Origin: Selaginella tamariscina
Lineage: Eukaryota > Streptophyta > Lycopodiopsida > Selaginellales > Selaginellaceae
Reading direction: 5' to 3'
NCBI GenBank assembly: GCA_003024785.1
Contig: PUQB01000052.1
Location: forward strand, 495,729-559,728
DNA: 64,000 nucleotides
Shown: positions 20,740 to 46,435 of the stretch, piece after piece
How the letters are laid out: every line of letters begins with the position of its first letter
Position numbering within the stretch: position 1 is the first letter of the stretch
Notes under the pieces: generated by a model
What the model was told of the DNA's origin: nothing
The model's database searches: none
The model's input: only the letters and a program-made list of their open reading frames with translations
Position numbers and translations under genes: made by a program

Positions 20740-20951
20740 TCAAGGCCGAAGATTATTTATTTATTTAAAAAGAATAAACAGAAATTTCTAATGGAAAAAG
20801 GAGAAAAGATATATTAATTATTTGATATATACTATGACTTGGATCACTAATTTAAATTTAAATTTGGACCATTAATCCCTTATCTTAGAATATTCTTAAG
20901 GAAATATTTTAATGTTGGCATATATTAACATCAACTTGGTGGTTCATAACA
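20740..20951 (-). repeat. Probable 3' LTR (part) of the decayed gypsy element
   Basis: It begins on the minus strand with TGTTATGAACCACC just after the polypurine tract. Parts of it recur at 40005-40365 (TCAAGGCC-AAG, the GAAAAAG-AGAAAAAGA-GATATATTA stretch, and AATGTT-GCATATA-TAACAT-AACTT), which supports a repeated LTR family. The far border is uncertain. Confidence 0.5.
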
Positions 20952-23900: not shown

Positions 23901-24850
23901 GATGTCACATGCCAAAAATCCACAACAGAGATAGGAATTTGGTATGGAGTTTCTTTAGATAAATAGAGTGTCAACATGCAATGGTATGATTCATGAAACA
24001 AGTATTGGCTTCAAAGTCCAACATAGTTAATGCTACAATTTTGTGACCCTTGATTATACAAAGCTCAGCTTGTGTTGTAAATGACTTTCCAACTCGAGAT
24101 GATAGAATGAAGTCAGTTGTTTATAGGGACTCTTCATACTTGGAATTGTCCAACTAAATGGCTCCTACTTTGGCTGGACATAATAATTTAATTCTTCATT
24201 CAACTTATTAAGAACTTCAAAATTGTTGCTTCTACTTAGAGGCTTGGGACACTCAAGGTGAATGTAGTTGATCATGTCATTGATGGGTTGGAGATTTGTT
24301 GAGTGAATGTGGTTAATTGTGTGCCTCGGCTTGTTTGGGTAAATGATTGTGATATAATCAGGGCCACCACAGTAAAGACACAAATACAACATTGCTTCTG
24401 AATTGGGGTTAGGGGACCTCAGTGTTAAGCTTGAGTGACTTCAGACTCCATGGGAATAGGTCCTTGTGTTGGGGCTGGAGCATGTCCATGGTTTCCCATT
24501 GGTGCTACCAAGGTGAAGCCATTGCTACTATGTAAGTGTATTCCTTTGAATGAGATTGTTGAAATTGTTTTGAGTAATGTTCAAATAACCGATTATCACA
24601 CCGTACAACATGATTGATAACCTCGGAAAGACTTACTAGGTCATTATGGAATGTCAAGAGAATGTTCTTGACATTGTTACAAAGCCCTTGGCGGAATTGA
24701 TTAATTAGAGCTTCTTCATCTCATGGCATGTCACATATCAAAAGGTGGAACTCCAATGTATAATAATACTAAACAATTACCCTATTGAAGTTGGTGAAGC
24801 TTATTAATTGTGGTGTGAACATTGTAATGCACGTTGTAACTAAAGTGGGC
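20740..24850 (-). mobile_element. Decayed Ty3/gypsy LTR retrotransposon
   Basis: The minus strand shows, from right to left, a gag zinc-knuckle relic (CLYCGGPDY, about 24350), a reverse-transcriptase relic (YYTKIDLQGAYNLVKI, KKCSFKQDHIEFL, 22970-23380), an RNase-H relic and an integrase C-terminal relic (YHSQTNDQFKRTIQTLEQYL and NYYHDNWVEF, 21600-21740). At the left end GAAAGAGGGGGGATAT looks like a polypurine tract, directly followed by TGTTATGAACC as the start of the 3' LTR. Stop codons and frame breaks are everywhere, so it is inactive. The order gag-RT-RH-IN and the integrase wording identify the Ty3/gypsy group. Confidence 0.82.
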
Positions 24851-25115
24851 ATGATACGTGAAAATGGGAATATAAAATAAATTACTAATTAATACTTAAG
24901 TTTTAATTATTAATTAATCATTTAATTAATATGTAATTAAGCCTTAAATATTAATTAATTAATTAATTAATCCTTCAATAACCTTACTTAGTAAGGAATA
25001 TTCCTAAAATATCTTAGAATATTCATATTATTCTAAAAATAGTTTACAATAATGAAGAAATACTATCAAACATAATTACAAATGAAATCATTTTCTTATC
25101 AACATGTTAATTTTT

Positions 25116-26304
25116 TTATAAATACTTTCTTTCTATCATACAAAGAAATCTTTTCATTTTGTCTAAATCATCACTCTCCGGATTAATCAAATCATTTTGG
25201 TCAATATCTTGATGTTGTTGCCACCACTTAACACTCTCACGAATGCAATTGGGAGTTGCCATCCTTGTTAATACATAAGATGTGATAAGAGAAGGTCTGC
25301 ATAAAGGCTCATCTAAAAACTGACGTTCCTTAAGAATAATATTATAAAGCGCCCGGTTGCTATCCTTCATTTTATAAAATTCAATATCACGAGAAAGAAA
25401 AGCTTCAGGAAATGTATGATACGGTGGATACTGCTCACAAAAATTTTCGAGATTCTTCTTTCTGAGGCACGTATCCAAGTAGTTCACTAGCTCATCCATG
25501 ATATCGGTATCAGAATATGGATCGAAAGTGATTGGATGAATACAAGCAATGTTTTGGTTGAGCATAGCCTTCTGAGGAGAGTCGTCTACTACTAAGATAT
25601 GTGCATTCTTCGTTATCCTTAAGCGACTGATCTCCCCATGAGTCCCAATTATTCTTTCATTCTTGAAGAAGTATGGCTTGCTTTCCTTTCTTATATTGTG
25701 AAATTCGAGAGGTTTATACACATTCGCTGGTCAAAAATCCAATCTTTACGAATCACCTCTTCTGCAACACTACAATGTTTCTTAAGTAAACTCAACAGCG
25801 GTGTTAAGTTATGAATCTGCATGCATGACCAAATCCCCACAAGCGCACCCATCTCCTTAAGCTTTTGAAAGAGACGATCCAACCCTGGACGAAAAATAAT
25901 ATCATATCGAAATTTACCATGACAAGGAATGAAATCTCCTTGTTTGATTTCTGTTTTTCTATCCTCGGGCCTTTGTCGATGAAGCAGAACACCATTGACA
26001 TCCAACAACACAATATGGCCATGAGTAACATGAGATAGCGTTGCCTCTTGAATACTTTGCAAATCACTTGTTTGCTCCCTTTCACATTTATCCGTTGCCA
26101 CTATTCGTTGCCTATCCCTTCATCATTTAATTGTACATCATCCTTACAAGATTCAGATATTGCATGCGCTGAAGAAATTGATTTCGGAACTGAAGCCAAT
26201 AAAAATGATGATGCAAAAACTGAAGTGGCCCCCATGGTAACGATGTTTTGAGCTGCATTATTATCCATTTCCTGCATGAACTCTGTCATTCTGACATGTG
26301 GCAC
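25116..26304 (-). CDS. FCP1/NIF-type HAD phosphatase-like protein of the palindrome cassette
   Basis: The protein starts near 26304 with MPHVRMTEFMQEMDNNAAQ. After a break near 26100 it reaches HIVLLDVNGVLLHR, the HAD motif I position. FCP1-type enzymes have DxDxT/V here, whereas this has D-V-N, the Asn variant seen in many plant NIF-like proteins. FRPGLDRLFQKLKEMG and VGIWSC follow, and after another one-base break at about 25725 come HILVVDDSPQKAMLN (the DDSP motif) and a C-terminal helical tail ending KMKRFLCMIERKYL. FCP1-like domains dephosphorylate Ser/Thr, classically in the RNA polymerase II tail. Whether the Asn variant is active is not clear. It lies just downstream of the ParB-like gene on the same strand. 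A decayed homologue lies at 41705-42870. Confidence 0.65.
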
Positions 26305-26561
26305 AAGAAATTGTCGCCAAACCCCTCTCTTACCTCATGGCAATGCTGAAAATCCATGTTCTCAATTATTTCATTACATCTGCAAAATGATAATTAGCTG
26401 ACCTTAAAATTATCAAGGTATATTATTTACCTTGTTAATGTGTGACCCATGTTTGAACTAAAAGCTTCATTAATCCTTGAGAATTTATTTTCTGTACAAA
26501 TATAAAAGAAATATACAAAAATGCCTTATGTTACACTCATTTACAACTATTCATCACTCTA

Positions 26562-29500
26562 TCAATTCATTATCAATTCTTCTTCGCTATTACCTTCTGA
26601 ATGAGGCGAAGAAGGTCTAAGCCGCTTGTGAGATGGTTCAAGATCTTCTGCATCTTCTATTGATGTTTCCATGGGTCCTGGAGTGTGCGAATGTTCTGTA
26701 CTCCTCGAGATAACTTCCGGTCTAATATCTGATTGATGTTCGTTCTCAGACTCCGAGATTGAACCAGATTCACCTTCAGAGCTATCGCACTTATCTGGAG
26801 GGAACTTTCTCAAATACGCCTTTATGGATTCGTTGGGGTACTCAGTTGAGACCCAATCTATCCACTTGTTCAGGTCCTCAACCATGGTCTTATCCTTTCA
26901 ACGGCAAACACACATGTATGCCGAAGGTAACACTCCTTCAAGACGGACCCCCTAGTGCAGTAGTCAAAAACCCACGCATCACTGTGAGGACCCCTGATCA
27001 AGTTGACGATGCTCCGTGCCGCTTGACTTGTAATGTTTGGATAACGTACATTGCCGAATACGTCACTCATACCTATCGGTGTATCGGATGGAGGTTCAGG
27101 GCCGTTGGAGTGCAAACAGATGCCTGGCCAGTCATTTGGAAGCTTGAAATTGTTTGGCGCATTCCTAACAACCAAGTGAACAACAGTATCAATGCACTTG
27201 GGATTAGCATCGTTCATATAAAATCCTGTCCAACGATGTCTATTCTTCTTGGCGAAGGCGAAGGCAAAAGTATCGGTGACATGAGCAAGAATCAAGAAAT
27301 AAATACCTGAAAAAGTAGGTATCAGTGAAGAGCGCAAGCATGAATTCAATAATAAATACCTTCTATGTATATGCTTGCACGGCTAAGTTTCTCCACCAGA
27401 TCCTCTAGTGCCCTATCTGTCGAAAGATTTTTTGACACCCGCCGATCCATCACGAACAATTGAAACGGTTTCCTACAAGCAGTGATGTTACCCCATAAAG
27501 TCTCCGAATCTAACAACAAACATCTGTAGGGCTTGTCGTGATTCGTAGCATCCTCCTTTATAAGGTTCAATTCGGTTCTCCGCTGCTGAAGGACTGCCAT
27601 AAGAGAAGGCGTCATCCCAATGTTCTCCTTTTTGGCGTTGGCGTGCAATAGATTCTTGCCTAGATCTTCCGATTGGTTCACCCATTCGACAAGCATATCA
27701 TCGTTCGTCACATGCAAATATTTGCTAACCTCTTCATATGTTGAAGTCGAGGTCCAACCCAGTTTGTGGCAGTGTATTCCCAACCACTCCTTGAAATGCC
27801 TGACCGTCTTCAACTCCATTGCCTTGAGATGAAAAGGAGAGGTTGGGCTGCTGTTATTAATTTGTAGTTTGCCATCGATCACCAAATCAGCCAAGACTTC
27901 CATCTCCTCCATCGTTGTTCCATTTAAAGGCTTCAACCATGTGAGCTTGAAATCGTTGTCTACATCCTTTGTAGATTGAACAGACTTAGCCTTCGGCGTC
28001 TTACTGGGTTTCTTTGCAGACTTTTCTGAGGGCTCCCCTTCACTTGTCTGCTTCTTCTTCAGTGTTCCTTTTGAAAAGGATTCCATAATCCCCAACCATT
28101 TGGCAAAGATCCTATCTTCGGGGCAAGAAATCAACATCATCAGAAATGATGTTTCCTTCCCGCCCACCTGGGCAAAATCAACTGCTGCAATTTCTTCAAC
28201 TCTCTGAGGAAAAAGACAGATTAATATACCGGCGAGATAAATCCCGCCCAAACAATTTGCTTACCCGGTATTCCGCAGATTGTGTATTCCCTGCGGTAGC
28301 TCTTTGTGGTCGCTGAAGAGATTCCCACACGGCTCGCGTGTGTTTAAACTTCTCCCATATTTTGCTGTTGTAGTGGTTGGTGTCGGCAGCGTCCCATTCC
28401 GCCGATAACTTATGGTACTGCTCGATTGTGAGATTCGGCTTAGCTAAAAACGCCGATCTTTTTGTCAGCTTCTCACGGTATGCTCAGAAAGTTTTGTTGC
28501 CATCGTTCCTTTGTTGTGTTCATCGAGAAGTCGTTGGGCTGCCGTTATTGTGTGCTGGCCACTAATGATGTAGTACTTGATAGATCTTTTATTCTCCGTC
28601 TGAATCTTCATGAGTTGTTCTGGTGTTGTGATCCAGACTTTGTCAGCCCTTCCTTCTTTCATAGTATGGACACAAAACAGCATTATGTGGAACGGTATAA
28701 GAATTGTCGTCCTTCATCTTCTCCATGAGCTCAGCTACACGTTCCTGGTTGAGTGGCCTGTAATTGAAGTTTGGGTTGACGCTGCAATATTTAACCCTAC
28801 AAGGATAAATCTTATCATCCAACATCATTTCCTTGTGACTTATTGCAGCATGAGATGCCACAGGTGCAGCTGACAAAACGATTGATGATTTTCTTTTGCG
28901 ATCCGAATCAACATGTGTGATCCCCGACTGCAGCTGTTCTAGTGTTCTCGGCACACTCTTCCAGCTCCCGAAGCTTCCTAAGCAAATTGAACGTGATCTG
29001 TAGAGAACCTGAGACCGAGCCACCTTCTCAATCTCCCTTATGATGTCGCTGTGTTCTTCTTCAATGTGAAGAGGGAAGATTGCTCCACTTGCTGATTTTC
29101 TGTATTGTGAAGCAATATCTCCTGACAATACACCTACTCGATGAGTCTGAAGATCTTCGAAGTAGACATCCAGATGGATCCCCTCCATAGATGGGCTTTC
29201 GTTGAGTTGAAGAAGAACTCCAAGGTCAACATCATTAGTGAACACGTGAACGTCATTATCCACAAGTCGACAAAACCACCCGAGATTAATGTTGTAACTG
29301 ACGACCTCTGGATCCGAGAACGTGACATTGGATGGAACAAGGCATATCTGTCGAGCATCGTCCAATCTGGGTTCGCAGCCTGCTTTCGGGTGCTTGACTA
29401 GCGAATCTACTTTCCATTGTTTTGCTTGTCCATGAGATGTGACAGAGGTTAATTTGACAGCAACCATGGTTGCTCCAATGCGCTTCCCATTTATCTTAAA

Positions 29501-29701
29501 ATATGGCCAAGTTGATTCCAGAATCCCCCTGCCCATCTCTTCTCCTGCTCTTGTCTTTAATGTCACTCAATTCCACATCTGAATACAAAAATGATTAGTT
29601 CAAGTATCCGAGTATAACAGATTTTATTTTAATTCTTACCCAGAATTTGACGACGACTCCATACTAATGACTCGATCTCCTTGTTTGATCAAATCGTCCT
29701 T
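26562..29701 (-). CDS. ParB/sulfiredoxin-like plus DNA-methyltransferase-like protein of the palindrome cassette
   Basis: A first readable exon (29645-29701, LIKQGDRVISMESSSNSG) follows a TTTTGCAG acceptor. The main part has an N-terminal module (GRGILESTWPYFKINGKRIG, TMVAVKLTSVTSHG), then VNPNFNYRPLNQERVAELME and YYIISGQHTITAAQRLLDE, spaced like ParB/Srx boxes (NP--R, then G--H--AA). A 61-bp intron at 28204-28264 is almost filled by one palindrome. A Lys-rich linker and a long helical part (FKEWLGIHCHKLGWTSTSTY) follow, then a C-terminal piece with WVFDYCTRGSVLKECYLR, whose spacing resembles the AdoMet-binding motif of DNA methyltransferases, ending in an acidic Ser-rich tail at 26562. The expected DPPY motif is not seen; FVMDRRVSKN stands about where it would be. 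Frame breaks lie near 28665, 28480 and 26895. The domain calls are by eye and would need profile searches. Confidence 0.5.
28204..28264 (-). other. 61-bp intron consisting largely of one palindrome
   Basis: Donor GTAAGC after the TACCGG codons, acceptor TTTTTCCTCAG before AGAGTTGAAGAAATTGC. Between them lies GGGCGGGATTTATCTCGCC, one slightly altered copy of the 18-bp palindrome. The corresponding intron of the decayed second copy (about 44270-44395) is about twice as long and holds at least two palindromes. Confidence 0.65.
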
Positions 29702-29802
29702 CTGCAAAATAATACACTATAAAATAATTATATAAAAACGCACACACACTTGTATAAACCCGAATATACAAAAATAATACACAGAGAGAAGTAGACGTAA
29801 TT

Positions 29803-29889
29803 AACTGTCCGAAGCTCACATTTGTGTTAGTGCAAAAGAAAGATAACATTTCGTTTTAGAACCACCACAAATGTGAGCTCTGGACAGTT
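29803..29889. repeat. 24-bp inverted repeat upstream of the ParB-like gene
   Basis: AACTGTCCGAAGCTCACATT (start of the left arm, 29803-29826) pairs with the arm at 29866-29889 with about two mismatches and a 39-nt loop. It lies between the first readable exon of the ParB-like gene and the large palindrome array. It may be a hairpin in the leader or a trace of an inserted small element. Confidence 0.6.
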
Positions 29890-29997
29890 TTACATAGATT
29901 CCTAGCTTTTACTCGAAATATTATGATAAGATGATAAAAGTAAATAAAATGAGATATGCAACTTATATATACTAATACACATATATATTCACATGGA

Positions 29998-31222
29998 AGG
30001 TGCGGCGGGATTAATCTCGCCACCCCTTCAATGCCTCCTGAAAGAGTGGGCGGGATTAATCTCGCCACCTTTCTGGAGGCCTTGAACGGGAGTGCGGAAT
30101 TAATCTTGCCACCCTTCTCGGTCTCAGAGAGAACTGGGCAGGATTTATTTCTCACACCCCTTCAGTGACTCCAGAAAGGAGGCGGGATTAATCTCGCCCA
30201 CCATGTAAGGATGGTTAAATGAATTCCCACCCTTCCCAGTTCCTCCATTGGTATGTTGTAAACCTTCTACGTCTCAGACAGAAACGTTTGGGATTGGTCC
30301 ACTCACCAATGGAGAAAAAGGAAGGGTGGCGGGATTCATTTCCAACAGGCATTGAAGACTCGGCGGGATTAATCCCGCCGCCCAGGGCCTTCACTCGGTC
30401 CCTATGCGGCGGGATTAATCCCGCCGGACGCCAATTCCCTGCGCGGAATCGGGCGGGATTAATCCCGCCGCCTAGGCACTTCAGAGGCCAATGGCGGCGG
30501 GATAATCCCGCCCGATTCCGACAGGGAATTGGCGTCCGGCGGGATTAATCCCGCCTCCCAGGCCCTTCACTCGGGCCTTAGTCGGCGGGATTAATCCCGC
30601 CGAACGCCAATGCCCTGTGCGAAATCTTGCGGGATTAATCCCGCCGCCTAGGCCCTTCAGGCAGGCCAATGGCGGCGGGATAAATCCCGCCCGATTCCGC
30701 GCAGGGCATGCGTACGCGGCGGGATTAATCCCGCCCACCATGTAAGGGATGGTGAAATTAATCCCACCACCCTTCTCGTTCCCTCCATTGGTATTTTGTA
30801 AACCTTCTCCGTCTCAGACAGAGTTAGTCGGGATTGATTCAACATACCAATGGGGTAATGAAGGTTCGGATTAATCTCGCCACCGGGTAATGAAGGTTCG
30901 GAGGCTAATCCCGCCGCCCTCTCGTAAATCATGCGCTCACACATATATATTGGCTGCGGCATTTTGAACAGGGATGGGTGGGGCGGGATTAATCCCGCCG
31001 CCCAGGGAATTCACGCAGGACATGAACGGCGGGATTAATCCGCCGCCTCCGCGAAGGGCATGAGCGTGCGGCCGGATTAATCCCGGCATTCATGTCCTGC
31101 GTGAATTCGCTGGGCGGCGGATTAATCCCGCCGCCATGGCCCCAAACCATATAGCGGCGGGATTAATCCCGCCGCCGAGGCTATAAACCTATAGCGGCGG
31201 GATTAATCCCGCCGCTCGAGGG
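29998..31222. repeat. Palindrome array 1 (GGCGGGATTAATCCCGCC, about 24 copies)
   Basis: About 24 perfect or near-perfect copies of the self-complementary 18-mer. The GATTAATC cores in the regular middle part fall at 30367, 30413, 30457, 30501, 30543, 30589, 30633, 30679 and 30723, a spacing of 42-46 bp. The spacers form a repeating order A-B-C-B' of about 176 bp, where B' is B in reverse complement (for example CCAATTCCCTGCGCGGAATC against GATTCCGACAGGGAATTGG). The array lies directly upstream of the minus-strand ParB-like gene. Similar arrays lie at 34864-35158, 37448-38050 and, decayed, 45115-45895. Each half of the palindrome (TCCCGCC) resembles an E2F core, which is suggestive only. Confidence 0.9.
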
Positions 31223-31918
31223 GCTAGCGAGATAAAACACACACATAATATGTGTGTGTGATATATATATATATGTATGTATGTATTATGTATAGGAGTG
31301 TACGTGTGTGCAAGAGATAGATAAATAAATAAATTTATACAGTACTGGTACACCTAATATATGTACATAGGTATATTATATATTGTGTATATGTATATCG
31401 TGTGTATGCGTGTGAGCGAAACAAATAAAATCATACAGATAAACAAACACACACACACATATATATATAACAGGAGTGTGCGTGTGTGTGCGAAAGATAA
31501 AACTAATAAATAAATAAAATTATACAGATAAACACACACATATATATGGTGGTTATATAGATATATAATCTATAGAAAAGAGAGAGAGTCTGTGAATATA
31601 TAAGCATATATAAAACTAGTGTTGTATGTATGTATATATGTATAGGTATATATTATGTGTATATGATTTGTGTTATGCGTGTGTGAGCGAAACAAATAAA
31701 TCATACAGATAAACAAACACACACACACACACATATACATACAGGAGTGTGCGTGGTGGCGAGAGATAAAACTAATAAATAAATAAAATTATACAGAAAA
31801 ACACACACATAATATATATATGTGTGTATATAGATATATAACCCATATGAATATATAAGCATATATATAAACTAGTGTTGTATACTATTTGTTAATATGC
31901 ATTGATTATATATATATA

Positions 31919-31969
<51 letters not shown>

Positions 31970-32034
31970 GTAGTGCGCGTGTGTGTGGGAGAGATAGATC
32001 AATAAAAAAAAAATTACAGATACTGGTACACATA

Positions 32035-32117
<83 letters not shown>

Positions 32118-32364
32118 GCAAGATCAATAAAAAAAAATTAACAGATACTGGTACACATAATATATGTATGTATATATGTATATAGGTATATATATATATG
32201 TGTGTATATGTATATCGTGTGTATGCGTGTGTGAGCGAAACAAATAAAATCATACAGATAAACAACACACACACCCACACACACATATACATACACAGGA
32301 GTGTGCGTGTGTGTGCGAGAGATAAAACTAATAAATAAAATTATACGCACACTCCTATACATAT

Positions 32365-32395
<31 letters not shown>

Positions 32396-32784
32396 GATCT
32401 CACCTGTGTGCACAGCCGCCGCCGCCGATTTCACAGCCGCCGCCTCTTGAAACCCTAAGAATATACCTAAACCCTAAAGGAATTAAATATATATATCAAC
32501 CCTAATAGAATATTCCTTCTGAGAATATACTTAAACCCTAAAAAGAATAAAATATAGATTCGCCCTAAATGAATATTCTTTCATTATATTATTAGCGTGT
32601 GCGTGTGCGTGGGTGTATCACATACACCTCAAAAATATAAATCATGCAGGGATTTAACATGTGTGTGTCCATGAGAGTGTTAAAGTTTCATGTGTATCAA
32701 TACATACATACACATTGCATATATTAATACACATAATATATACATACACACGTGTATACACACAGACATACACACATATTACAT

Positions 32785-32810
32785 GGGTTTAGGGTTTAGG
32801 GTTTAGGGTT
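32785..32810. repeat. Interstitial telomere-type repeat (TTTAGGG)n
   Basis: GGGTTTAGGGTTTAGGGTTT with a little flanking homology gives about three and a half Arabidopsis-type telomere units. A second block lies at 33250-33271. Both are inside the microsatellite tract, not at a sequence end. Confidence 0.8.
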
Positions 32811-33249
32811 TTGGATTTAGGATGGATCATGCATGGTGTGTATGTATGAGAGAAGAGAGAGTGTTGAAAAATTATTTTTGTACACATTGCATATATTAGT
32901 ACACATATATACTTACACATATTATACACAGATATACATACATAGTATATGAGAGAAGAGAGACAGTACATATTATGGATCATGCATGGTGTGTATTATA
33001 CACACAGACATACATACATATTAGTACATAATATTAGAGAGACCGAGTACATATTATAAATCATGCATGGTGTGTATGTTTGAGAGAAGAGAGACAGTAC
33101 ATATTAACATGGATCATGCATGGTGTGTATGTATGAGAGAAGACAGAAAGTACACATATATACATACAGAGTACACATATATACATGCACACATGTATAC
33201 ACACAGACATACATACATATTACATGAGTAAATTCATTGTGTTACATAT

Positions 33250-33271
33250 TAGGGTTTAGGGTTTAGGGTTT
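33250..33271. repeat. Second interstitial telomere-type repeat
   Basis: AGGGTTTAGGGTTTAGGGTT, about three units, in the same orientation as the block at 32785. Confidence 0.8.
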
Positions 33272-33531
33272 GCTCCCAACAAGCTTAATATAAATATTAC
33301 ACATGTAAATTCAATGTGTTACATACAGTCACACAGATTGAGTACATATATCATACATGCGTTGAACATGATGTTTTCAATAAAGAAGCAACCTATTTCT
33401 TCAGTTTGGTTTAGGGTTGTGCATGTGTGTGCATATGTGTTTTTGTAAGTTCTTGTAATGCGTGTGTAAATTTATGATTGTGTTTATATATGTGTGCAAA
33501 ACAAACATCGAATAATTAAGAAAATAAAATT

Positions 33532-34250
33532 AATAAACACACTAGGAACATATTTTAAATTATACATAATAATTATGATTTTATCTAATATATAGCCATA
33601 TATAGTTTTAATAATATATATTAATTTAATATTGATAAAAAGGTTGAACATTGAAATATTCTTGAAATAATAAGAAATTAATTGAGAAAATCCCATTAAT
33701 ATATACAAATGTAAATTAAGTACTCAATAATTAACTAAATTAATTATCATAATCATGTTTAATATTGGAATATTCTTGGAATAATAAGAAAATAATAAAG
33801 AATATCCCATTAATATAAAGAAGATTAATTACTCAAGTAATTAAGGAAATGATATTAATATATATATTATTAAAACTATATATGACTATATATTAGATAA
33901 AATGATGTATTATTATGTATAATTTAAAATATGTTCATAGTGTGTATTAATTTAATATTGATAATAAGGTTTAACACATGAATATTCTTGAAATAATAAC
34001 AAATTAATTGAGAAAATCCCATTAATATATACAAATGTAGAATAATTACTGCAATAATTAAGAACAAGACTAATTTAATTATGATAATCAGGTTTAATAT
34101 TAGAATATTCTTCAAATATTAATAAAATATTAAAGAATATCCCATTGATACTAGGAAATGAAAACTAAATACTCGAGTAATTAAGAAAATAATAATAATA
34201 AACAGACTATGAATATATTTTAAATGATACATAATAATATATTAATTTAT
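33532..34250. repeat. AT-rich direct and inverted repeat cluster
   Basis: A block with CATATTTTAAATTATACATA and ATATAGTTTTAATAATATA occurs at about 33532-33621, in reverse complement at about 33852-33945, and in part again at about 34200-34250. A second block (GAATATTCTTGAAATAATAA followed by TCCCATTAATATA) occurs at about 33650-33715, 33765-33820, 33985-34035 and 34100-34150. No gene is visible. Confidence 0.65.
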
Positions 34251-34518
34251 TTATTGTATAAGTATATATTTATATATATATATATAATATAAATATACTT
34301 GAATACTAAGAATGTAGAATATAGTCTAAAATTTCGTAATATTAGACAGCTTGAATCACTTGAATAACATTAAATGCAATTTTAAAATATTCATTGGAAC
34401 TGGAGAGTATATATGTCAGAGTGTCGGATATTTGTGTCAACTCATCTTAAATTTTATTTTCTGTCTTTTTAAAAAATTTGAATTTCTGACATATGTATTG
34501 TCGGTCTGACATGTAAAT

Positions 34519-34704
34519 TTGAAAATGCATTTAATTTCCCACTCAAATTCAGATCTGGTTCTTTCTCCGGCAAGGGTTTCTTCATTTCTGTATTTTTCAC
34601 TCTTTAGATCTTCTTTTTTCTTCATAGTGATCATCTCAGGAGCGAGATTAAATTGGGTGCTATTCTTTATAGGAAAGTACGGCGCCTTCAGTGCTGTTTA
34701 CAAG
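34519..34704 (+). other. Candidate leader exon for the DUF7869-type gene
   Basis: The DNA up to TACAAG|TAAGTATT (donor at about 34703) is less AT-rich than its left flank and has CT-rich leader character (GATCTGGTTCTTTCTCCGGC). It sits just left of palindrome array 3. If the 35-38 kb segment were turned round, this exon would lie upstream of the first DUF7869 exon on the same strand. The 60-codon frame it contains has no recognisable protein motif, so a 5' UTR exon is more likely than coding. Inference from position and splice site only. Confidence 0.3.
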
Positions 34705-34863
34705 TAAGTATTATAAACAAATTTAAAAATACTTATTAAGATTCACTCTCTTACATTCTCTCTTAAAATTACAATTTAGGGGTTTAGAAATGCATTAGGA
34801 TTATAATATATTCCGTTAGGGATTTATCACGTTTAAATATCCTTTTAACTTAATATTCTAGGT

Positions 34864-35158
34864 TAACCGGGGCGGCAGGATTAATCCGGCCATTTCTTTT
34901 TCGCCTCTTTGAAGAAGTGGCGGGATTAATCCCGCCACCATCTCCCGGGCAATGCTTCTCCGCCACTGAAAAAGAGTGGCGGGATTAATCCCGTCGATAA
35001 CCTTCTCAACTGATGAAGAGTTACCAGAATTATTAAAAAGAGTTGTCGGCGGGATTAATCCCGCCAACCATTTTAGGAGGCAGGGAAGGGGTGGCGGGAT
35101 TAATCTCGCCACCACTTCCCTGTTTTAAAGATTTGGGGACAGGATTTATCCCGAGACT
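34864..35158. repeat. Palindrome array 3 (six copies)
   Basis: Copies of the GATTAATC-cored palindrome with cores at 34879, 34924, 34983, 35053, 35098 and 35143. Three of the five intervals are exactly 45 bp although the spacers differ from those of the other arrays. The array abuts the 3' end of the minus-strand part of the DUF7869-type gene. Confidence 0.85.
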
Positions 35159-35159
35159 C

Positions 35160-37305
35160 TTTGAAATCACAGTCACAAGCAAAGCACAACTTTTTTTGGA
35201 GATGCAATTTTCAAAAAGATTCATCATATGCGGTAAGGTAAGTGCACTTGTCCTTTTTGTAGACCTTGCTGAAGAACGCATCAATATCTTCATGAGTGTG
35301 ACCAACCATAAGGAAACTGAGCGTGATTGTTTCAAACACACCTTTGGCAACAAGCATTGACAAGTATGCTAGCACATATCTAGAAAATAAAAGTAAGTAT
35401 GAGCTTGAGAAACCCTTAAGTAAAATGATTTACCTATTTTTGTTCTCGCCTGCACAATTATCCATCTGTAAAAGCAAATGACGAGGAAGCTTATTTGATG
35501 TTGAGGACACATGTACACTATTTGAGCTAGATCCCTCCACTGAACCTGAACTCTCAACAGGGCCATCTGTTTTTTGTGCAGGTTGCTGACAATGCCTCTC
35601 ATATTCCCAAGTAGCCTCAAGTGCAGACGTGTTCATGAGAGCATTATGTAAAGGTTGAAGGTGTTGTTTCTTCACTTTGAGATCACTGATAGGACTTGTC
35701 TGTGAGTGGGCTTCAAGGTTTCTGAAACACATGGCTAACGACCCAATAGTGAAATTGGAGTCGCTAGACCAATGTGGAAGTGAAAAGTGTCCATATGACT
35801 CACAACCGTGTCCATGTGTTAGCACACATGTTAAAGAAATCGGAAGTTTCATGACATTTCCAAGGCACTTTGTGTTGCAAAGAGCTTTGGAATGCTGGTC
35901 TTTGAATGATCCATCTTGTCATGGATCAAGCACAGGTACTCTGATGGGCGTGATACAGAAAGCATGCGGTGTGCATAGTACTGAGACCGACAAGTTTGTT
36001 GTGCAATCATGTGGGCCTCCATCTTCCTTTGAATGGTAGTGATCTCCACCAAGGTTTTTGCACAAGCCTCTGCAGCCTTCAATGATGTACAAGTGTCACA
36101 CTTAGAAAAGCTAGAGTGTTTTGCAATCTCCACATCCTTAAAATGAGTATTCCATATGTTGTTGAAGGTACTAGTGCAGATTGCTTGGAGCCCCATCAAA
36201 CTGAGGCACTTGTTCACATGTTCACACAGTTTCAATTGAGTGTAGATTGAAGGTAAAACCTTGAGATTTTCCCTGACCCCTGCATTTGTGGTTCGGCATT
36301 TGTGAGGCATCCTGTCTGCATTTGCTTCCACAAAAGCCTTGAGTATTCTCTATGGCTGCCATGATGTGAGAGCGGGTTTTGACCAAGCCAGTGTTCCCAT
36401 GAACTGAGGTTCGCGCTCCATCTAGCCACTCATCCCTCCGATGGTAGAACGTGGTCTTTGGGATCCCGTATATACTGTACCAAGCTTTGAAGCAGATGGC
36501 CACCTTATTAAATACCATGGATGTACTCTGATAAACCTGTGTCCGAGGCCATTCCATCAATACACCCAGTTAGTGCAGCATATACAAACTCATGCCTTTG
36601 CTTTTGGGTGAGCATACGAAAGACATGTCTACATTGGGTAATTTCATTCCGGTCTGCCATCTGACAACACTTCTTCTTGCAAACAGTCAATCATGGAAAT
36701 GCTCGTAACACTTTCGGAAGATGTAGGATCCATCTTTACCCTCTTGCTGAAACTTGCAGGGGAAGATCTACAACCCATGAATCGCCTTTTTCTTACAATA
36801 GGACCAATGCAAGGAACCTCTTCAAATATGAGTTGTTCTTCCGGGTTGTTATTATTGAAATCCAACCCAGAATATGTTGAACCATCTTGCCGTCTTAATT
36901 CAGATGTTCGCCACCTCACGAGGGATCCAGGATACAATGTGCCATTAGGTGAAACCTCTGTCACAACTACACCCACGAAGTCGGACCCTAGTTTCTCTTC
37001 TGACACTGCTTCCATTGGATTTATAGCTGTGATGATGCCTCTTCCGACTTCAATCTCACGAAGAAAGAGAATCACCTCATCCATTACAGCAGGCAAGCCA
37101 TCATCTGGTAAACTCGTGCTACTATTTGTTTGTGACTCTGCATATTTTGTGTCAGCCTTGATTCATCCAAATTCCACAATACAGGAGAACCCTCCTCAAT
37201 ATTGTGACATGATGCATTATTATCTCGAACTTCCACAGTTCCAGTGCCAACTATCTCGTTGTTCCGAAGAAGACATACTTTATCTCCAGTATTAAACATA
37301 TTGTC
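35160..37305 (-). CDS. DUF7869-type protein, N-terminal and central part (possible DDE-like transposase)
   Basis: It starts after a TTATGTGCAG acceptor at 37305 with MFNTGDKVCLLRNNEIVGTG. Next come GRGIITAINPMEAV and VGVVVTEVSPNGTLYPGSLV, a cysteine-containing entry segment (KKCCQMADRNEITQCRHVF), FVYAALTGCIDGM, FKAWYSIYGIPKTTFYHRR, VRENLKVLPSIYTQL, CDTCTSLKAA and LIHDKMDHSKT. HGHGCESYGHF and DSNFTIGSL follow, then QMDNCAGENKNR. After a 54-bp intron (35380-35433) come YVLAYLSMLVAKGVFETI, LMVGHTHEDIDAFFSK and ALTLPHMMNLFENC. The signatures DKMDHSKT, DNCAGENKNR and GHTHEDID are those I know from DUF7869 proteins in mosses, protists and invertebrates. Their spaced acidic residues suggest an RNase-H/DDE fold, which is inference. 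Several one-base breaks occur (37090, 36680, 36540, 36320, 35850, 35230). The C-terminal part is missing here but lies inverted at 38060-38998. Confidence 0.7.
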
Positions 37306-37447
37306 CTGCACATAAATAATTGTGTTATTTATGATATCTGTTATGCAATATTTTAAAAAATCTGAATTACGGTTACTTAATAATATGCATATGCAATAAT
37401 ACATAATTATGTTTAGAGATAATATCTCATGTTGATTAATACAACTG

Positions 37448-38050
37448 ATGGGCGGGATTAATCCCGCCACGAATCCCTCCGACGAGGAACGGTCGGCGGG
37501 ATTAATCCGCCACCGACTCAACCCCTTCGGAGAGAGTCGGTGGGATTAATCCCGCCTTGGACTCCCTCCGACAAGGAAGAGCCGGCGAGATTAATCCCGC
37601 CGCCTCTTCCTCCTCGGGGGAGTCCGGCGGGATTAATCCCGCCGACTCTCTCCGACGAGGAAGGGAGTCCGGCGGGATTAATCCCGCCGCCGACTCAACC
37701 CCTTCGGAGAGAGTCGGCGGGATTAATCCCGCCTTGGACTCCCTCCGTCAAGGAAGAGCCGGCGGGATTAATCCCGCCGCCTCTTCCTCCTCGAGGGGAG
37801 TCCGGCGGGATTAATCCCGCCGACTCTCTCCAACGAGGAAGGGAGTCCGGCGGGATTAATCCCGCCGACTCATCATCGCCGGAGAGAGTCGGCGGGATTA
37901 ATCCCGCCGGACTCCCTTCCTCGTCGGAGGAAGAGGCGGCGGGATTAATCCCGCCGGCTCTTCCTTGTCGGAGGGAGTCCAAGGCGGGATTAATCCCGCC
38001 CACAATTCTTACGACGGGGAATGGGTGGCGGGGATTAAAACCCGCACATA
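37448..38050. repeat. Palindrome array 2 (about 14 copies, 45-bp period)
   Basis: Copies start at 37626, 37671, 37716, 37761, 37804, 37849, 37891, 37938 and 37983, with more on the left, an almost constant 45-bp step. A four-copy unit of about 180 bp is repeated: the spacer GACTCAACCCCTTCGGAGAG appears near 37505 and again near 37691. Several spacers are reverse complements of others (TTGGACTCCCTCCGTCAAGG near 37734 against its complement near 37962), so the right part mirrors the left. It separates the two oppositely oriented parts of the DUF7869-type gene. Confidence 0.9.
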
Positions 38051-38059
38051 ACTCTCTCC

Positions 38060-38998
38060 AAAACTAAGGTGCCAGACTTTAAAAAATTTCTCAAGGAGTA
38101 TATAAAAGAAGGGAGTGATTCTTTAGTTGGTCACCTTGTGCCGCTACAATTCTTTTTCTCCATACGAGATGGTATACCTATTATGCAGTACAAGTTACAG
38201 CCATCAGAGCAGGAGTGGTTACCGAAAGAGGGCTTAATGCTCTTCAAAAGTGGAGAGGATGGAAAGCCACTTCTCCCAGAAGGACAACCAGACCCTATTC
38301 CATTGAGTGCCCAGCTCAAGGAACAAGAGGTTATTATTGATGGCATCAAAAAATATGTGGCATGGGTTCAAAAATCGATGCCAAAGAATTCTGATAAGGC
38401 AAACTGGTTGCTCAGAACTATATAAGCATGTGGTCAACTATTGGGAGACTGTTGTTCGAGAGTTGGAAGGGCCTACTGTCACAAGTACAGAATTGCAACA
38501 CCCTTTTTGGCCTAAAACAAGGTGGCGAGAGGAGATTGAAATGACATCACTGAGCACAGACGACATAGAAGCCAGTAGTGATGTGGAAGTGCAAACCCCA
38601 CATTTTGTTGGACAAAGGAACCAAAAACCTAAAGCATATTTTGATTGCTGCAAGGATCTTCAAAAACTAATGATGGTTCTCATTACTCCAGATGCGTCAT
38701 ATAATCAGCCTATTTGGATGGGTCAAATTATCGACACACCTTGAAGTAATCACAAAAAATAGTATTGTTAAGGTTGCATGGTTCAAACCACAAAAAAGGC
38801 GACACGAGAAGGAGAGCGAAAAGATATAATGGATGCCTAGAGAAAACATGGTCTCCCAATCAAAAAGACCCAGCATGTTTTATAAATGTTAAATCCATTC
38901 GATATGGGTGGATGTCAAGAAGCGTTGATAAAGTCACGATTACAAAACTGCAAGGGAATGTATGTTTTCTGAAGCTTAAAGCAATTACAAAATTATAA
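38060..38998 (+). CDS. DUF7869-type protein, C-terminal part in inverted orientation
   Basis: After an AG acceptor (AAAACTAAG, about 38065) the frame reads PDFKKFLKEYIKEG, GHLVPLQFFFSIRDGIPIMQ and SEQEWLPKEGLMLF, the C-terminal wording of DUF7869 proteins (a hydrophobic F-F----G--MQYK core). After a break at about 38415 it continues with NYWETVVRELEGPTV and QTPHFVGQRNQKPKAYFDCC. After further breaks near 38740 it reads GCLEKTWSPNQKDPACFIN and YGWMSRSVDKVTITKLQG, ending near 38998. It picks up just where the minus-strand part at 35160 stops, but on the opposite strand and beyond a palindrome array. A decayed second copy of residues from the middle of this part lies on the minus strand at 40700-41165. 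Confidence 0.65.
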
Positions 38999-38999
38999 A

Positions 39000-40004
39000 A
39001 TATCATATATTTAATATTCATAATTATTATAAACTCTTTAATAATAGTACCAAATTGTATACTTAACTATATAAATTTAAAAAATGATATGGAAGATTGA
39101 CTATATTATTATAGGATTTTATATATATATTATTACTACTACAAATTTTTAATTAATAATGTTATATTTAAATATTAATATTTTAATAACAACATCAATA
39201 TTTATATAATTACCTCTTATGCTCTTCCTTAATTGTTATATTAGGCAATATATTATATAATTTAATACATTCTACTTTTATAATGTTATTAATTTTGTTC
39301 AATGAATGCTATAATTTATTAAAGGGTAGAATACAAAATAGAATATTCTAAAGAATATTCTCTTTTCAAACATATATTCTAAAGAATATTCCTTTAATAT
39401 TAGAAAATGCTAATTAAATAGTTAAAATTGCTAATTATTAGGAAATGGGACTATAGCCATGCCCATTTTAGTTACAACTTGCATTTGTTAGTGTCACAAA
39501 AATAATGCTTAAACTCCGAAAAGAATAGTTTGAAGTTATTCAACAGTTGTGAATTTTTCTTTTACAAAAGTGCAAACCAAGCTCAAGCTATGTTGGTGAG
39601 TAGTAGTCCAACTAGACCTACCTTTGGATGATCATCTACATAACAATTAGGGTTCATCAAAATGATTAGGTAAACCTAATTCATGAATTAATGGAACTAT
39701 GATCTTATGCTATTGAATCTTTTTGTCTCGTGGTGGTGTAGAGGAAACATGAGCTTGAAGGAATAATTGGATTTGTCATGTGAGTTTGGTCACTTGTTGT
39801 ACCAGCTTTTGACCCTCATGATTTTGTCATTCCTTAATCCTCACAAGCTTATATTTTTTGCCATCAACTATTAATTTTCACTTGTTAGTCGTTGGTTTTC
39901 TTATTGTAAACTTTCCAACATGCATGTATAATCTTACTGAGTGATTTCAACCATTATCCTAGCATGACTAAAACGCAACTAGCATAAAGGAATTTTAGTT
40001 CAAA
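39000..40004. other. AT-rich DNA with possible retroelement leader
   Basis: 39000-39440 is AT-rich without genes. 39530-39950 has a less biased composition, and short minus-strand stretches could be a decayed gag or leader belonging to the LTR fragment at 40005-40365, but no motif is clear enough to call. Confidence 0.35.
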
Positions 40005-40365
40005 ACTATCAAGGCCAAAGCCTATATTAGAGAACAAACATAATCTTTTAGTGAAAAAGAGAAAAAGAAGATATATTATAGCTTAGTATTATAAAAATTG
40101 GTTAATAATTGGTGTTAACTTGGAATACTAAAACCCTAATAATTGGTGTTAACTAAAACCCTAACCCTAGCCTTTGGCATCCTTGAACCATCAATATAGA
40201 TTTAAATTTGGATCTTTAATTCTAAATCTGAATTTCAATCTAAACCTCTAGTTTGGAATTTGAATTTGAACCATTAGTTTTTTATCTTAAAATATTTTTA
40301 AAAATATTTTAATGTTTGCATATACTAACATTAACTTAATATATTCTAGTGGTTCATGATAACAC
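40005..40365 (-). repeat. LTR fragment related to the 20.7-kb gypsy LTR
   Basis: It shares with 20740-20951 the TCAAGGCC-AAG stretch, GAAAAAG-AGAAAAAGA-GATATATTA, the AAATTTGGA-C-TTAAT pattern and AATGTT-GCATATA-TAACAT-AACTT before GTGGTTCAT-ATAAC. The middle is longer here through extra AAATTTGGAT-like units. It may be a solo LTR or the end of a separate element. Confidence 0.5.
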
Positions 40366-40699
40366 TCTCAACAAAAATTAGACTTTTTATAATCCCAATT
40401 AATAATAATTAAATAATTTAATTTAGTTATTTATTAATACTAATATTTAATCTAAAAATATTTTTAAAATATTTTATGCTTAAAGAAAGAACCAAAAAAT
40501 TAATTTTTAAGAATCCCTTTAATTCTAAAGAATATAGAGTAACTACATTTTTTTTTTTATTACTTTAAATTTAAAAATACATGCATTGTCTTGCAATGTT
40601 GTTGATTATGACATTTTTAACACTTCTGGCATTTTACCCATATTGAATAGATTTACGTGTATGATGCATGCCAACTTTTTTCAACTAAAAGATTATGTT

Positions 40700-41165
40700 T
40701 TGTCTAGGCATTCATTGTATCTTTGACTCTCCTCTTCGTGTTACCTTCTTTGTGGTTGGAACCATGAAATCTTTACCTCATTATTTTTTGTGATGACTTT
40801 AGGTACATCAATAACTTGACCCATCCAAATAGCTTGGTTGTATGACTTGTCTAGAATAATGATAATGATCATTCATTAGCTTTTAAAGATCTTTGTAACA
40901 ATCAAAGCATGGTTTAAGCTTATGGTTTTTTTCGTTTAACGAAGTGTGGGGTTTGCACTTCCACATCACTACTGTCATCCACACTCCATGACATGGTTTT
41001 CAATATCTTCGTGTCACATTGTTTTAGGTTAAAAAGGGTGTTATATTTTTGTGTGTATAATAGTAGGCCCTTCTAACTTCCAAACAATTCTAACGTCCAA
41101 ACAAATCTCTCAATGGTCAACATGTGCTTATATAAGTAACCAATTACATTATTAGGATGCTTTAT
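40700..41165 (-). pseudogene. Decayed copy of the DUF7869 C-terminal part
   Basis: The minus strand reads GTTAGAAGGGCCTACTATTA ... GTAGTGATGTGGAAGTGCAA ... CTATTTGGATGGGTCAAGTT, matching 38465-38735 of the better preserved copy base for base over long stretches, but with stop codons and indels. Palindromic DNA is absent here. Confidence 0.75.
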
Positions 41166-41704
41166 TGTTATAAGTAATTGTTTTTATCTTGCTTTTCTAA
41201 CTCAACACGAGCAAAATTGTAAATCATTGGGTTTGTTATCTTGAGTGAAGTATATGCAACTTCAAGTGATGAAAAACATTTGGGAAGAGCAAGTGAGGTG
41301 GATTTTCCTTGTAAAATTTATGCAAATCTTTTTAACAGAGGCAAATGTCTAAGTAACTTAATAGCACATCTATTTTATTGATTTCTTTGTATGGGTTGAA
41401 TGTGACATGGTGTATAGCCATTATAATCTGGTTAAGCATTGTCTTTTGAAGAATATTATTAATCAACAAAATCTAAAGATTATCAATAAGCATTTTTGTA
41501 AATGCCTAACCTTTGAACCATGTACTCTTCCATTTTGAAGAAGATTGGTTTGTCCTCAGTGTTTTTAGAAAAAAGAGTTAAAAGTGATTTGCAAATGCAT
41601 CTTTACAACATTGTTGATTCCATATGAATTACCTTGTACATCGCTGCATTGTAAACATAAAGCTTATGAATGAGCACTTATATGTTGTGGCACATTGTGC
41701 ATGA

Positions 41705-42870
41705 CTAAATACCCACAATTGCATTCATCTCTTTAAGCTCGTTAAAAAGTATTGTCAAGCCAAGGCACAAGACAATATCTTCACAGAGGCTATCACCACG
41801 AGGTACTAAGATTTCTTGTTTAATCTCTCTATGTCTTTCTTCAAGTTTTATTGCTGGAAAAGTTGCTGTTAAAATAAAAAAAAGACAAGGTGGCGATGTG
41901 ACTTGCGACAAGGAAGTTTCTGGCAAGTTTGGTGATATATAGTACATTATACTTGGAAGATTGTTAGAAACAAATGTAAATTCCCTTGGTCTAATAGCAA
42001 TCATCTCATCATTGCTTGTCTCTAGAACTTCCATTCCTAAGCATTGAGCTTGCACACTCTCAACAATATCCTCCTTATCTCCATGCTCTATTGTGTTTGT
42101 CGGTATGACCTCCTCAATGCCAATTTTCATACTTAATTAAACCCCATGCATGGACTCCTCTTCTTCCTACACAAGTGAAGTTTAGGGACACTAGTCAAGT
42201 ACATTTATTGCTTCTTGTATTCTAACCATCATTTGTTTTGGCATTATCATCATTAAAGGTTTGATTTGGAAAGGCTCATTCAAAATCACCATTAAATCGT
42301 TGTTGCACTCTTGAACATTAAGTTATTTTTCTTCTTAGAGTTTTGGATCTCAAGGAAATTGGTATTGCCTCACTTGTGTAAAATAATCAATGAAAAAAAA
42401 CCAATCAAGTGCATTTACTACTACTTGTATTATACTATTATTAAAGATTTAATTTGAAGAGGTTTTTCACTTTCATCATTCATAACCTCATTGAAAATCA
42501 CTACTAAATCATTGTTACATTCTCAAACATTAACTTGTTCTTGTTCTTTTCTTTGAAGTTCTTGGATCTTAAGAAAATTATTATTTTCCATGGAAGAGTT
42601 AAAACACAATAAATTCCAAATGACAATATGCATTTCCATCTTCTTTTTTTTTTTATCTGGCCTAAGAAATTAAGGTTTAGAAACTACATCTTTTGATGAG
42701 AGGATAAATCCCATGGAGCAAACCACTCATTGGAACCCACTATAGTTATCTCTATTGAGACAATGTCTTTAATGTTGAAGTCATGCATGAACTTGTTGTT
42801 ATGACATGTGGCATAATAAATTTTTGCTATATCCTTCTCTTGTCTTATGATGTTGAGAAAAATCCTCACT
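41705..42870 (-). pseudogene. Decayed copy of the FCP1-like phosphatase gene
   Basis: The piece at 41705-42130 keeps EERHREIKQEILVPRGDSL and LFNELKEMNAIVGI, matching DRKTEIKQGDFIPCHGKF and LFQKLKEMGALVGIW of the copy at 25.1-26.3 kb. The catalytic DVNGVL region has become FILTATF. The upstream piece at 42684-42869 (KIYYATCHNNKFMHDFNIKD) matches the N-terminal exon of that copy (NFLCHMSE--FMQEMDNN). Stops and frame changes make it a pseudogene. Confidence 0.65.
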
Positions 42871-43099
42871 CTCCATTGTTATGTTGTCTTTACAAAATTA
42901 TTGTGAGCTATCATTAAAATTATCAAGGCAATATATTGTTTACTTTGATAAAATGTGTGACTCATGTTTAAACTAAAGGTTGCATTAATCCTTGAATTTT
43001 TATTTTTTTTATACAAATAATACACAGTAAAACTTGCCTTATGTTATACTCATTTACAACTATGTTTGACTACCTTTTAATTATCTTCCACTTTGTACC

Positions 43100-44790
43100 T
43101 TTAGAGTAGCTCGAAGGCAGTCTTCATCGCTTGGGAAATTGTTTGTTAGCATTCTTCTCTTCAAAAGACGATGTTGATCCAAAGTTTTATTTATCATCAT
43201 TCTCTAAAAGATACCTCCTCTTTCCCTTTGGTTGGTGTTGCAAAAGACACTTAATGCTCAGCTGAGTGAAAGCAGACGCCTTGCCACTCATCTAAAAGGC
43301 TAAAGTTTTCTTGTGCATTTTTAATAATGAAGTGAACAATCATATTGAAACTTTTGGGATCTATGTCATTCATGTTATATCTAGTCATGTAGTGTTTATT
43401 TGCTTGGCAAAGTTGATTGCAAAAGTTATCAATTATATTAGCAAACAAACAAAAAGTAAATCCCTTTAGCGTACGTGCTCTTACAATCGAGCATGTCAAT
43501 TAGATCTTAGAGCCCTTTCTTCATGGATGGGCTACCCAGTACACGCAAAATCCATCATAAACTACTAGAATGTCTTCATGCAAGCAACTACAACACCCTA
43601 GGTTGTATCTGACTCTAATTATAGTATCCTATAGAAATTGTCATGCACGGTGGCATCAACCAGTATCACCTTCAACTCAATCCTCTGCTGCTCAAGGATT
43701 GCCATAAGAGGAGGGATAACGCTTTATGTTCTTCTTTTTGATACTTGCATGCAAGAGATACTGGGCCAGATCTCTCCTCAAGTCTAACCATTATTTGAGC
43801 ATATTATTGTTGGTCACCTTTTAAATAATCCTTGGCCTCCTCATTGGACTCAATGTCTATCTAAGTTTATGACAATGTATTTTTAACTACTCTTTGAAGT
43901 GCGAATGTGCTCAGGTTGATTTGTAGTTAGTTGTTGAGCACAAGATTTGCTACCACTCGCATCTCCTCCACTATTATTTTGTTGAGAGGCTTCAACCATG
44001 TGAGTTTGAAATTAGTGTCAACATCCTTCTAATGTAAGACAGCCTTTGGCTTCACTAACTTTGTTGGTTTCTTTGAAGAGGATTGCTTCTTGACATGCAC
44101 ATGCTTCTTCTTCATCCCCTTGAGTGTTTCGTTCGTGAATGCCCTCATGCTAGTCACCTACTTATTGAGCAGCTTGTCTTTGGGTAGGAAATGAAACATT
44201 ATTAAGAAGAATGTCTAACTTCCACTCACCTCAAAAAAATTCAAAGCTGCAATCTCTTCAACTTTTTGAAATTGGAAGAATAAGCATGCAAATTTGTTGG
44301 TTTTGATAAATACTACCCAGAAAGTGGGCGGGATAAATCCTGCCTAGGAGATGGGCAAGCTGCCTAGGAAGTGGGCGAGATAATCTTGCTGGAAAACATT
44401 CTTATCCAATATGGCATGCTATATTTATCCCCTGTTGTGACTTTGAGTGCTCTCCCAAGGTTTTGCCATATTTGTCATGTGTGTTGGAACTTCTTTTATA
44501 TCTTATTGTTGTATTCGTTAGTGTCAGCAACATCCCACTTCGCATATAGTTTATAGTACACTTGGACAATAAGACCCAACTTTGCCAAGAATGGGACTCA
44601 TTTTCTCAATTTATCACAGAGCCGCACCGAAAGTTTGTTGGGCATGTCACCTTTCATGTGTGCATCCAATAAACGTTGGGCTGATATTATCTTATGTTGG
44701 CCATTGATGATGTAGTACAGTGTTGACTTGCTCTTTTGGTACTTCTTGAATTCATGAGTCTCATTCCCAAAGTAAGTTTTAACCTAACCA
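43100..44790 (-). pseudogene. Decayed copy of the ParB-like/methyltransferase-like gene
   Basis: The minus strand shows LYYIINGQHKIISAQRLLDA (against YYIISGQHTITAAQRLLDE), then KWDVADTNEYNNKI, an intron of about 125 bp with at least two palindromes (44320-44392), and VEEIAALNF. Farther on it has YNMNDIDPKSFNMIVHFIIK and LLDEWQGVCFHS, matching FYMNDANPKCIDTVVHLVVR and LPNDWPGICLHS of the 26.6-29.7 kb gene. Many stop codons are present. The ParB-like N-terminus upstream of 44790 is not recognisable. Confidence 0.7.
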
Positions 44791-45114
44791 TCCACCTACC
44801 CCTAAACTTAACCCAAGGGATTTAGGGCATGGGGTTGGGGCAACCCTAAGGGTGTTTTTAATTATATTCGACATGTCAAACTCACCAATTGAGATGTCAA
44901 AAATGAGGGGAGAGTTTTCTAAATAGAGGTGCTAGCTTTGCCTAGAGTTTCTTGAAAATACATAATAACACATGGCTGTACCATCACTAGATACTCAAGT
45001 GCACTAAGCAAGCTTATTTCCTTAACACCTAGGGGTTATCAACATAGTTCAATAAGTAATAATAGTCAACATTCCAAAGTAAAGAATAAATCATAATAAA
45101 AAACTATGATAACT

Positions 45115-45895
45115 TTGGTAGGATAAATCATGTTGTGGGTCTCAAAATAACCTAGCATTGGGCAGGATAAATCCCACCCAAGGATGGAGATGACAAAATG
45201 GCCTTTGGAAGGTAAATCCCACCTAAGGCTTGGAAATGGTAAGATGGTTTTTGCAAGATAAATCTTATTGTGGGTCCCATAAGTAACCCATTGTTGAGTG
45301 GGATAAATCCCACCCAAGGATGGAGATGGCAAGCCTTTGTGAGATAAATCTTGCCCAAGGTTACATTTATCCTGTCAAAGCCATCTTGTCATTTCAATCC
45401 TTGGGTGCAATTTATCCTGACGAAGCCATTTTACCATCTCCCATCCAAAGTTAAAGATGGTAAGATGGCTTCAGCAAGATTATCCCGCCAAGGATGGAAA
45501 TGGCAAGGTGGCTTCGGTAGGATAAATCCTACCCAAAGTTAAAGATGGCAAGATGGCTTTAGCAAGATTAATCCCTCTTAAGGATGGAGATGGCAAGATG
45601 GCTTCGACATGATAAATCCTAGATCTTTAGATGGACAATCCTTGCATGAGCATAGAAGGATAAGAAGGAAAAGATGCAGGTTTGGGCATGATAAATCCTA
45701 CCAGTTTCTAAGGAGGGCAAGAAAGCATTGGCAAGATAAATCTCATTGATGCCAAGAAAAATCTTGCCAATGTTGAGAAAGACACAAATGGTTTAGTGAG
45801 ATAAGTCTGTGCTTAGAAGGGCTCGCAAATTTTGATGGGATAAATTCCATCAAATCTCATGGACTAATGTAGGCATCAACGGGATAAATCCCGCC
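45115..45895. repeat. Palindrome array 4 (decayed, GGGATAAATCCC cores)
   Basis: Roughly fifteen cores of the form GATAAATC, often flanked by CCCACC, TCCTACC or TCCCGCC, lie upstream of the decayed ParB-like gene, the same relative place as array 1. The first cores are at 45122, 45166, 45212, 45257 and 45302, again about 45 bp apart. Spacers read CAAGGATGGAGATGGCAAG and variants. Loss of most CG dinucleotides relative to arrays 1-3 fits decay of methylated CpG sites. Confidence 0.75.
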
Positions 45896-46435
45896 TTGCA
45901 AAGGAGAACATGAATGGTTTGACAAGGTTCCCATTGCAGAGTTATCAATTGGATTAAAGTTGTTGGGGTGATGGGTTCATAATACAGGTACTTTACCATA
46001 TATCATGGAGGTTTTTATAGAGTCAATCTAGGGTTGACATCTAGCAAGCCGCCTTCATGGCACCAGGTAAAAACTCTAACACCTTGGAAAGGGGAATACA
46101 CACGAACTTAGAGATTAACATCATCCTGATTGATTGAGCTCCTTCTCTATTAAGAATAAAACATAATGGATACACACCCACACACACATGCACACATATA
46201 TATACTTATATGTTAAAGGGAATCAATAGTTGATAATGTAAATAATGGAGTGCATCTAGTAGAATAAGGATGTATTTGCTTGGATATTTAAAGGGTTACC
46301 TTTGCAGTTATTCAAAGCTCGTCACAAAGCTTAGTTAAGAATAGAGGTATATAATGAACCTAACTATTCAAAATAAATAATGAGACTGACAAGTAGCTAT
46401 TGATTGAATTGACTTTGTGTATTTGATTTACAAAT
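45896..46435. other. Spacer between palindrome array 4 and a gypsy relic
   Basis: I see no gene. The stretch holds a short (CA)n(TA)n tract at about 46165-46210. Some of it may be the leader of the following retroelement relic. Confidence 0.4.

Follow-up and report, generated by a model that had tools for sequence, protein, structure and literature searches.

An internal inversion splits the DUF7869 gene in one copy of an abundant DNA transposon of Selaginella tamariscina

Why do two parts of one gene lie on opposite strands, with arrays of palindromes between and beside them? The case stands in a window of 64,000 nucleotides (contig PUQB01000052.1, positions 495,729 to 559,728), whose own numbering is used below. 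A sequence-only reading had proposed that a DUF7869-type gene was split by inversion of the stretch between two palindrome arrays, that the arrays mediate this inversion, and that it may act as a reversible on/off switch. We compared the locus with sister copies in the same assembly, the only one searched (300,702,823 bases (300.7 Mb), 1391 contigs). The split by inversion is borne out, as the gene parts are colinear and uninverted in nine of nine fetched sister copies, which were chosen among the best matches and are a non-random set. The event itself is, with high probability, an end-joining inversion that happened once, in this copy alone, a decayed member of an abundant transposon family. 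The gene and the turned segment have the following parts.

35170-37305, minus strand: upstream coding part of the DUF7869 gene, frameshifted (Pfam, homologs, sister alignment)
near 35370-35430, minus strand: apparent 53-base intron of the upstream part, a candidate from splice consensus only
38067-38998, plus strand: downstream coding part of the DUF7869 gene, in its original orientation, frameshifted (order in 15 homologs, sister alignment)
34519-34704, plus strand: candidate leader exon (GTAAGT donor at 34705; same donor in sister copy C671)
35170-38066, minus strand: inverted segment (uninverted in 9 of 9 sisters, base-exact junctions)

Two minus-strand pieces (35433-35918 and 35214-35429) match DUF7869 (PF25273) in Pfam with E-values of 1.7e-12 and 2.6e-17. 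The plus-strand piece corresponds to the downstream part of a DUF7869 family protein. It is matched by 15 of 19 homologs, lies after the minus-strand pieces in all 15, and has no match in the other four, so that the C-terminal continuation expected from family order is indeed what this piece encodes. PF25273 is carried by all 19 homologs, which have acidic residues in common with the family of the window gene. Pfam states no function for DUF7869 proteins, whereas here the gene is part of a 14.66-kb element that also has terminal repeats, palindrome arrays and a phosphatase gene. The acidic triad and the predicted fold suggest a transposase-like protein in which DUF7869 would have the catalytic role. 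A Foldseek search against the PDB gave no match at E <= 0.001.

Base-level alignment to the sister copies places the breakpoints at 35169/35170 and 38066/38067, which enclose 2,897 bp. In BLAST, the sister order is window 24.8-35.17 kb, then 38.07 to 35.17 kb reversed, then 38.06-39.48 kb, in nine of nine copies; in five of them BLAST left the array part near the breakpoint unaligned or multiply aligned, and the left side of C108 and C113 was fetched or matched partially. All sisters (C1015 to C113) read TTTGAAATCA followed directly by TAGTTTTGG at the array-side junction and CTTGTGACTG followed by AGGTGCC at the exon junction. The window junctions instead join TTTGAAATCA to CAGTCACAAG and CCAAAACTA to AGGTGCC. 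Not one base was lost or gained at either of them in this comparison, so the inversion is conservative. The breakpoints have three bases (AGT) in common, one base off the cuts.

The coding breakpoint lies inside the DUF7869 domain, about 40 residues past the GHTHEDID motif: the domain covers residues 343-477 of protein P0002, which the plus-strand piece matches from residue 435. In the sisters the two gene parts are fused directly in one open reading frame, and C671 has 345 open residues spanning the uninverted junction, which makes an intron at this place unnecessary. The sequence-only reading had placed an array between the gene parts as an intron, with an AG acceptor before 38060. No array lies there, and the acceptor is superfluous, with 38066/38067 being the inversion junction in coding sequence. 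Copies that are colinear and intact across the junction region thus exist elsewhere, which that reading had itself listed, together with reads of only one orientation in all tissues, as speaking against a switch. Its uninverted arrangement was correct in other respects, as both gene parts stand on one strand, in family order, behind the leader in the sisters. The leader exon also fits, since in C671 the array is enclosed by a GTAAGT donor after the leader and a CAG acceptor ahead of the first coding piece; its status stays that of a candidate. From these splice signals, the array apparently sits in the first intron, between the leader and the first coding piece.

30004-31213, no strand: array 1, a separate palindrome array adjoining the start of gene A
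34874-35110, no strand: array 3, the piece of the intron array outside the inversion
37451-38000, no strand: array 2, the piece of the intron array carried inside the inversion

The arrays are real, with 34 palindrome matches in the window (<=2 mismatches) against 0.00 expected. At the array-side breakpoint, nine of nine sisters have 13-18 palindrome units in a single run; this is the one array whose two pieces, parted by the breakpoint, are arrays 2 and 3. Around the coding breakpoint, none of the nine has a palindrome within 300 bp. The arrays therefore do not bound the inversion, because its second breakpoint cuts coding sequence without nearby palindromes. The turned segment is not the stretch between the arrays but 35170-38066, array 2 included.

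The split gene belongs to a complete transposon copy.

24827-39484, no strand: whole DNA transposon copy, 14,658 bp (ends aligned with sisters; empty site in C1164)
24822-24825, no strand: left target-site duplication TTGT (single TTGT at the C1164 empty site)
39485-39488, no strand: right target-site duplication TTGT (single TTGT at the C1164 empty site)
24827-24852, plus strand: left terminal inverted repeat, 26 bp (sister comparison)
39459-39484, minus strand: right terminal inverted repeat, 26 bp (sister comparison)
25119-26119, minus strand: NIF/FCP1-like phosphatase gene (PF03031, E 2.3e-7 for 25694-26119)
26565-29566, minus strand: gene A (open frames, Pfam, protein search)

The 26-bp terminal inverted repeats match each other imperfectly and are common to the sister copies. 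One extra A at 24826 separates the left TTGT from the element. Target duplications are 4 bp long in six of the seven sisters in which both ends were read, C895 being the exception, and terminal inverted repeats with duplications of a fixed length are marks of a cut-and-paste DNA transposon. C1164 (6000-15999) has flanks about 98% identical to those here, a single TTGT and no element. This is an empty site, and the insertion is therefore probably polymorphic between haplotypes. Membership in CACTA (En/Spm) was rejected: the element ends begin ATGCAC and the duplications are 4 bp, whereas CACTA ends start with CACTA and make 3-bp target duplications. Duplications of about 4 bp occur in the Sola and Academ superfamilies. 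Gene A had no relatives at E <= 0.001 among 6410 candidates in a protein search. In a search for relatives in viral contigs, three stretches fit a pattern and none was confirmed by tblastn. The sequence around the element (20855-24825 and 39485-40337) is retrotransposon-like, with reverse-transcriptase-like frames recognized by eye, and it holds repeats (20855-20937 and 40257-40337) that share 84% identity. Inside the element, runs of the plant telomere-like TTTAGGG (32785-32821 and 33250-33272) lie between its two genes. Pieces of host genes (receptor kinase, PPR, response regulator) were also seen by eye in translations, in keeping with a land plant.

Genome-wide, the uninverted exon junction has 2102 matches (1031 + 1071; <=3 mismatches), against 0 for a reversed-pattern control, and the left end of the element has 1574. 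The right inverted junction has one match, the window. The left has two, the window and one with 3 mismatches that resembles a variant of the uninverted junction. The inversion is thus private to the window copy in this assembly, and a multiplied inverted subfamily is ruled out, each inverted junction being present once. At least 39 further copies of the plus-strand part are 99% identical to it (40 of 1987 candidates scored). Among the 39 plus and 39 minus parts listed elsewhere, eight pairs are adjacent and colinear, one of them also among the nine sisters, and none within 20 kb is opposed. The family consists of large DNA transposons that are very abundant and were recently active.

Compared with the nine sisters, the minus-strand part has 12 substitutions of its own, five single-base indels within the coding stretch, and private deletions of 8 and 72 bases. 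The plus-strand part carries five private substitutions (one junction site left out) and six indel events, some of them outside the gene. Private frameshifting indels flank the coding breakpoint on both sides. Some of the single-base indels may be assembly errors, as the sisters have private ones too; the 8-base deletion hardly is. From its sequence, the window copy is a decayed pseudogene copy of the transposase-like gene. Private substitutions number 33 in 5463 bases (33400-37440 and 38063-39484) versus 2 in 5123 (24827-29950), with two junction sites omitted and the left half compared with seven sisters only. Their densest bin is 34.5-35.0 kb, arrays and satellites aside. C:G to T:A changes make up 21 of the 33 (context 5 CG, 3 CHG and 13 CHH). 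The substitution cluster near the inversion (33000-38500) could possibly stem from mutation close to the repaired breaks or from recombination with an older copy.

What, then, turned the segment? If the arrays acted as inverted repeats or recombinase sites, the segment would flip reversibly and turn the gene on and off, and in the window the two visible arrays do flank the minus-strand part of the gene. That impression dissolves in the sisters, which have one array and, around the second breakpoint, no palindrome for 300 bp, with only AGT in common between the cuts. A segment that flips back and forth is also at odds with inverted junctions that each occur a single time while the uninverted exon junction occurs 2102 times, and a working gene under such control with the private single-base indels and the 8-base and 72-base deletions. 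Because of these frameshifting indels, turning the segment back would not alone restore an open gene. Nothing shows the segment flipping back, and we put the chance of an array-driven switch at next to nil. An artefact, created while reads of near-identical copies were assembled, is very improbable. The very many near-identical copies and palindrome-rich stretches of this single assembly invite such an error, but the coding breakpoint lies outside any palindrome or inverted repeat, the junctions lie outside repeats common to both ends, neither junction gained or lost a base, and private substitutions flank each of them on both sides. It is likewise scarcely credible that the element's own transposase, or the gene A protein, made both cuts in an abortive transposition. 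The breaks do fall within the transposase's own element and the joining is conservative and loss-free; yet neither breakpoint looks by eye like a terminal repeat, the junctions have no target duplication, and each inverted junction is present once.

We favor a private end-joining inversion. The DUF7869 transposase-like gene came in with the high-copy 14.66-kb DNA transposon, whose insertion made a 4-bp target duplication. The palindrome array of the putative first intron and the coding exon would then each have suffered a break, and double-break end joining would have rejoined the ends, which now stand in the wrong orientation with nothing lost or gained. The inversion cut the gene within its DUF7869 domain and divided the array in two. 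Loss-free conservative junctions are less usual in end joining than junctions with small losses. The window copy, if still mobile, would presumably need transposase from sister copies.

Reversible inversion switches are of the bacterial phase-variation type. The window inversion is like them in that a segment in inverse orientation splits a gene. It differs in having no inverted repeats at both ends, no associated recombinase, a single orientation at the window copy in the assembly, and no open gene. Another comparison comes from Ling and Cordaux 2010 (PMC3004938), who describe whole bacterial insertion sequences that invert by recombination between their terminal inverted repeats. Both are inversions within a DNA transposon that alter the copy; in the window, by contrast, it is an internal 2.9-kb segment that turned, between a cut in an array spacer and another in coding sequence. 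Our literature searches found neither the DUF7869 name nor a description of this element family.

The finding is thus a base-resolved internal inversion that breaks one copy of an abundant DNA transposon. The element family is more interesting than the inversion itself. It can be sketched as a high-copy DUF7869 element that also bears a phosphatase gene and palindrome arrays, and this sketch points to a role as transposase for a domain of unknown function. We suggest, tentatively and with more doubt than confidence, that DUF7869 elements are distinct, perhaps unnamed giant (~15 kb) DNA transposons with 4-bp duplications, a phosphatase gene, a second gene without known relatives, and long arrays of an 18-bp palindrome beside both gene starts that are perhaps self-regulatory. 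Such elements might make up several per cent of the genome, and breaks in their palindromes might occasionally rearrange copies, the one in the window being a case. At 40552-45900 lies a relative of the element, much older and decayed, with remains of gene A and the phosphatase on the minus strand at about 74% DNA identity where alignable. Its downstream DUF7869 part, likewise on the minus strand, directly adjoins the phosphatase; this older relative has therefore also been rearranged, by other breakpoints.
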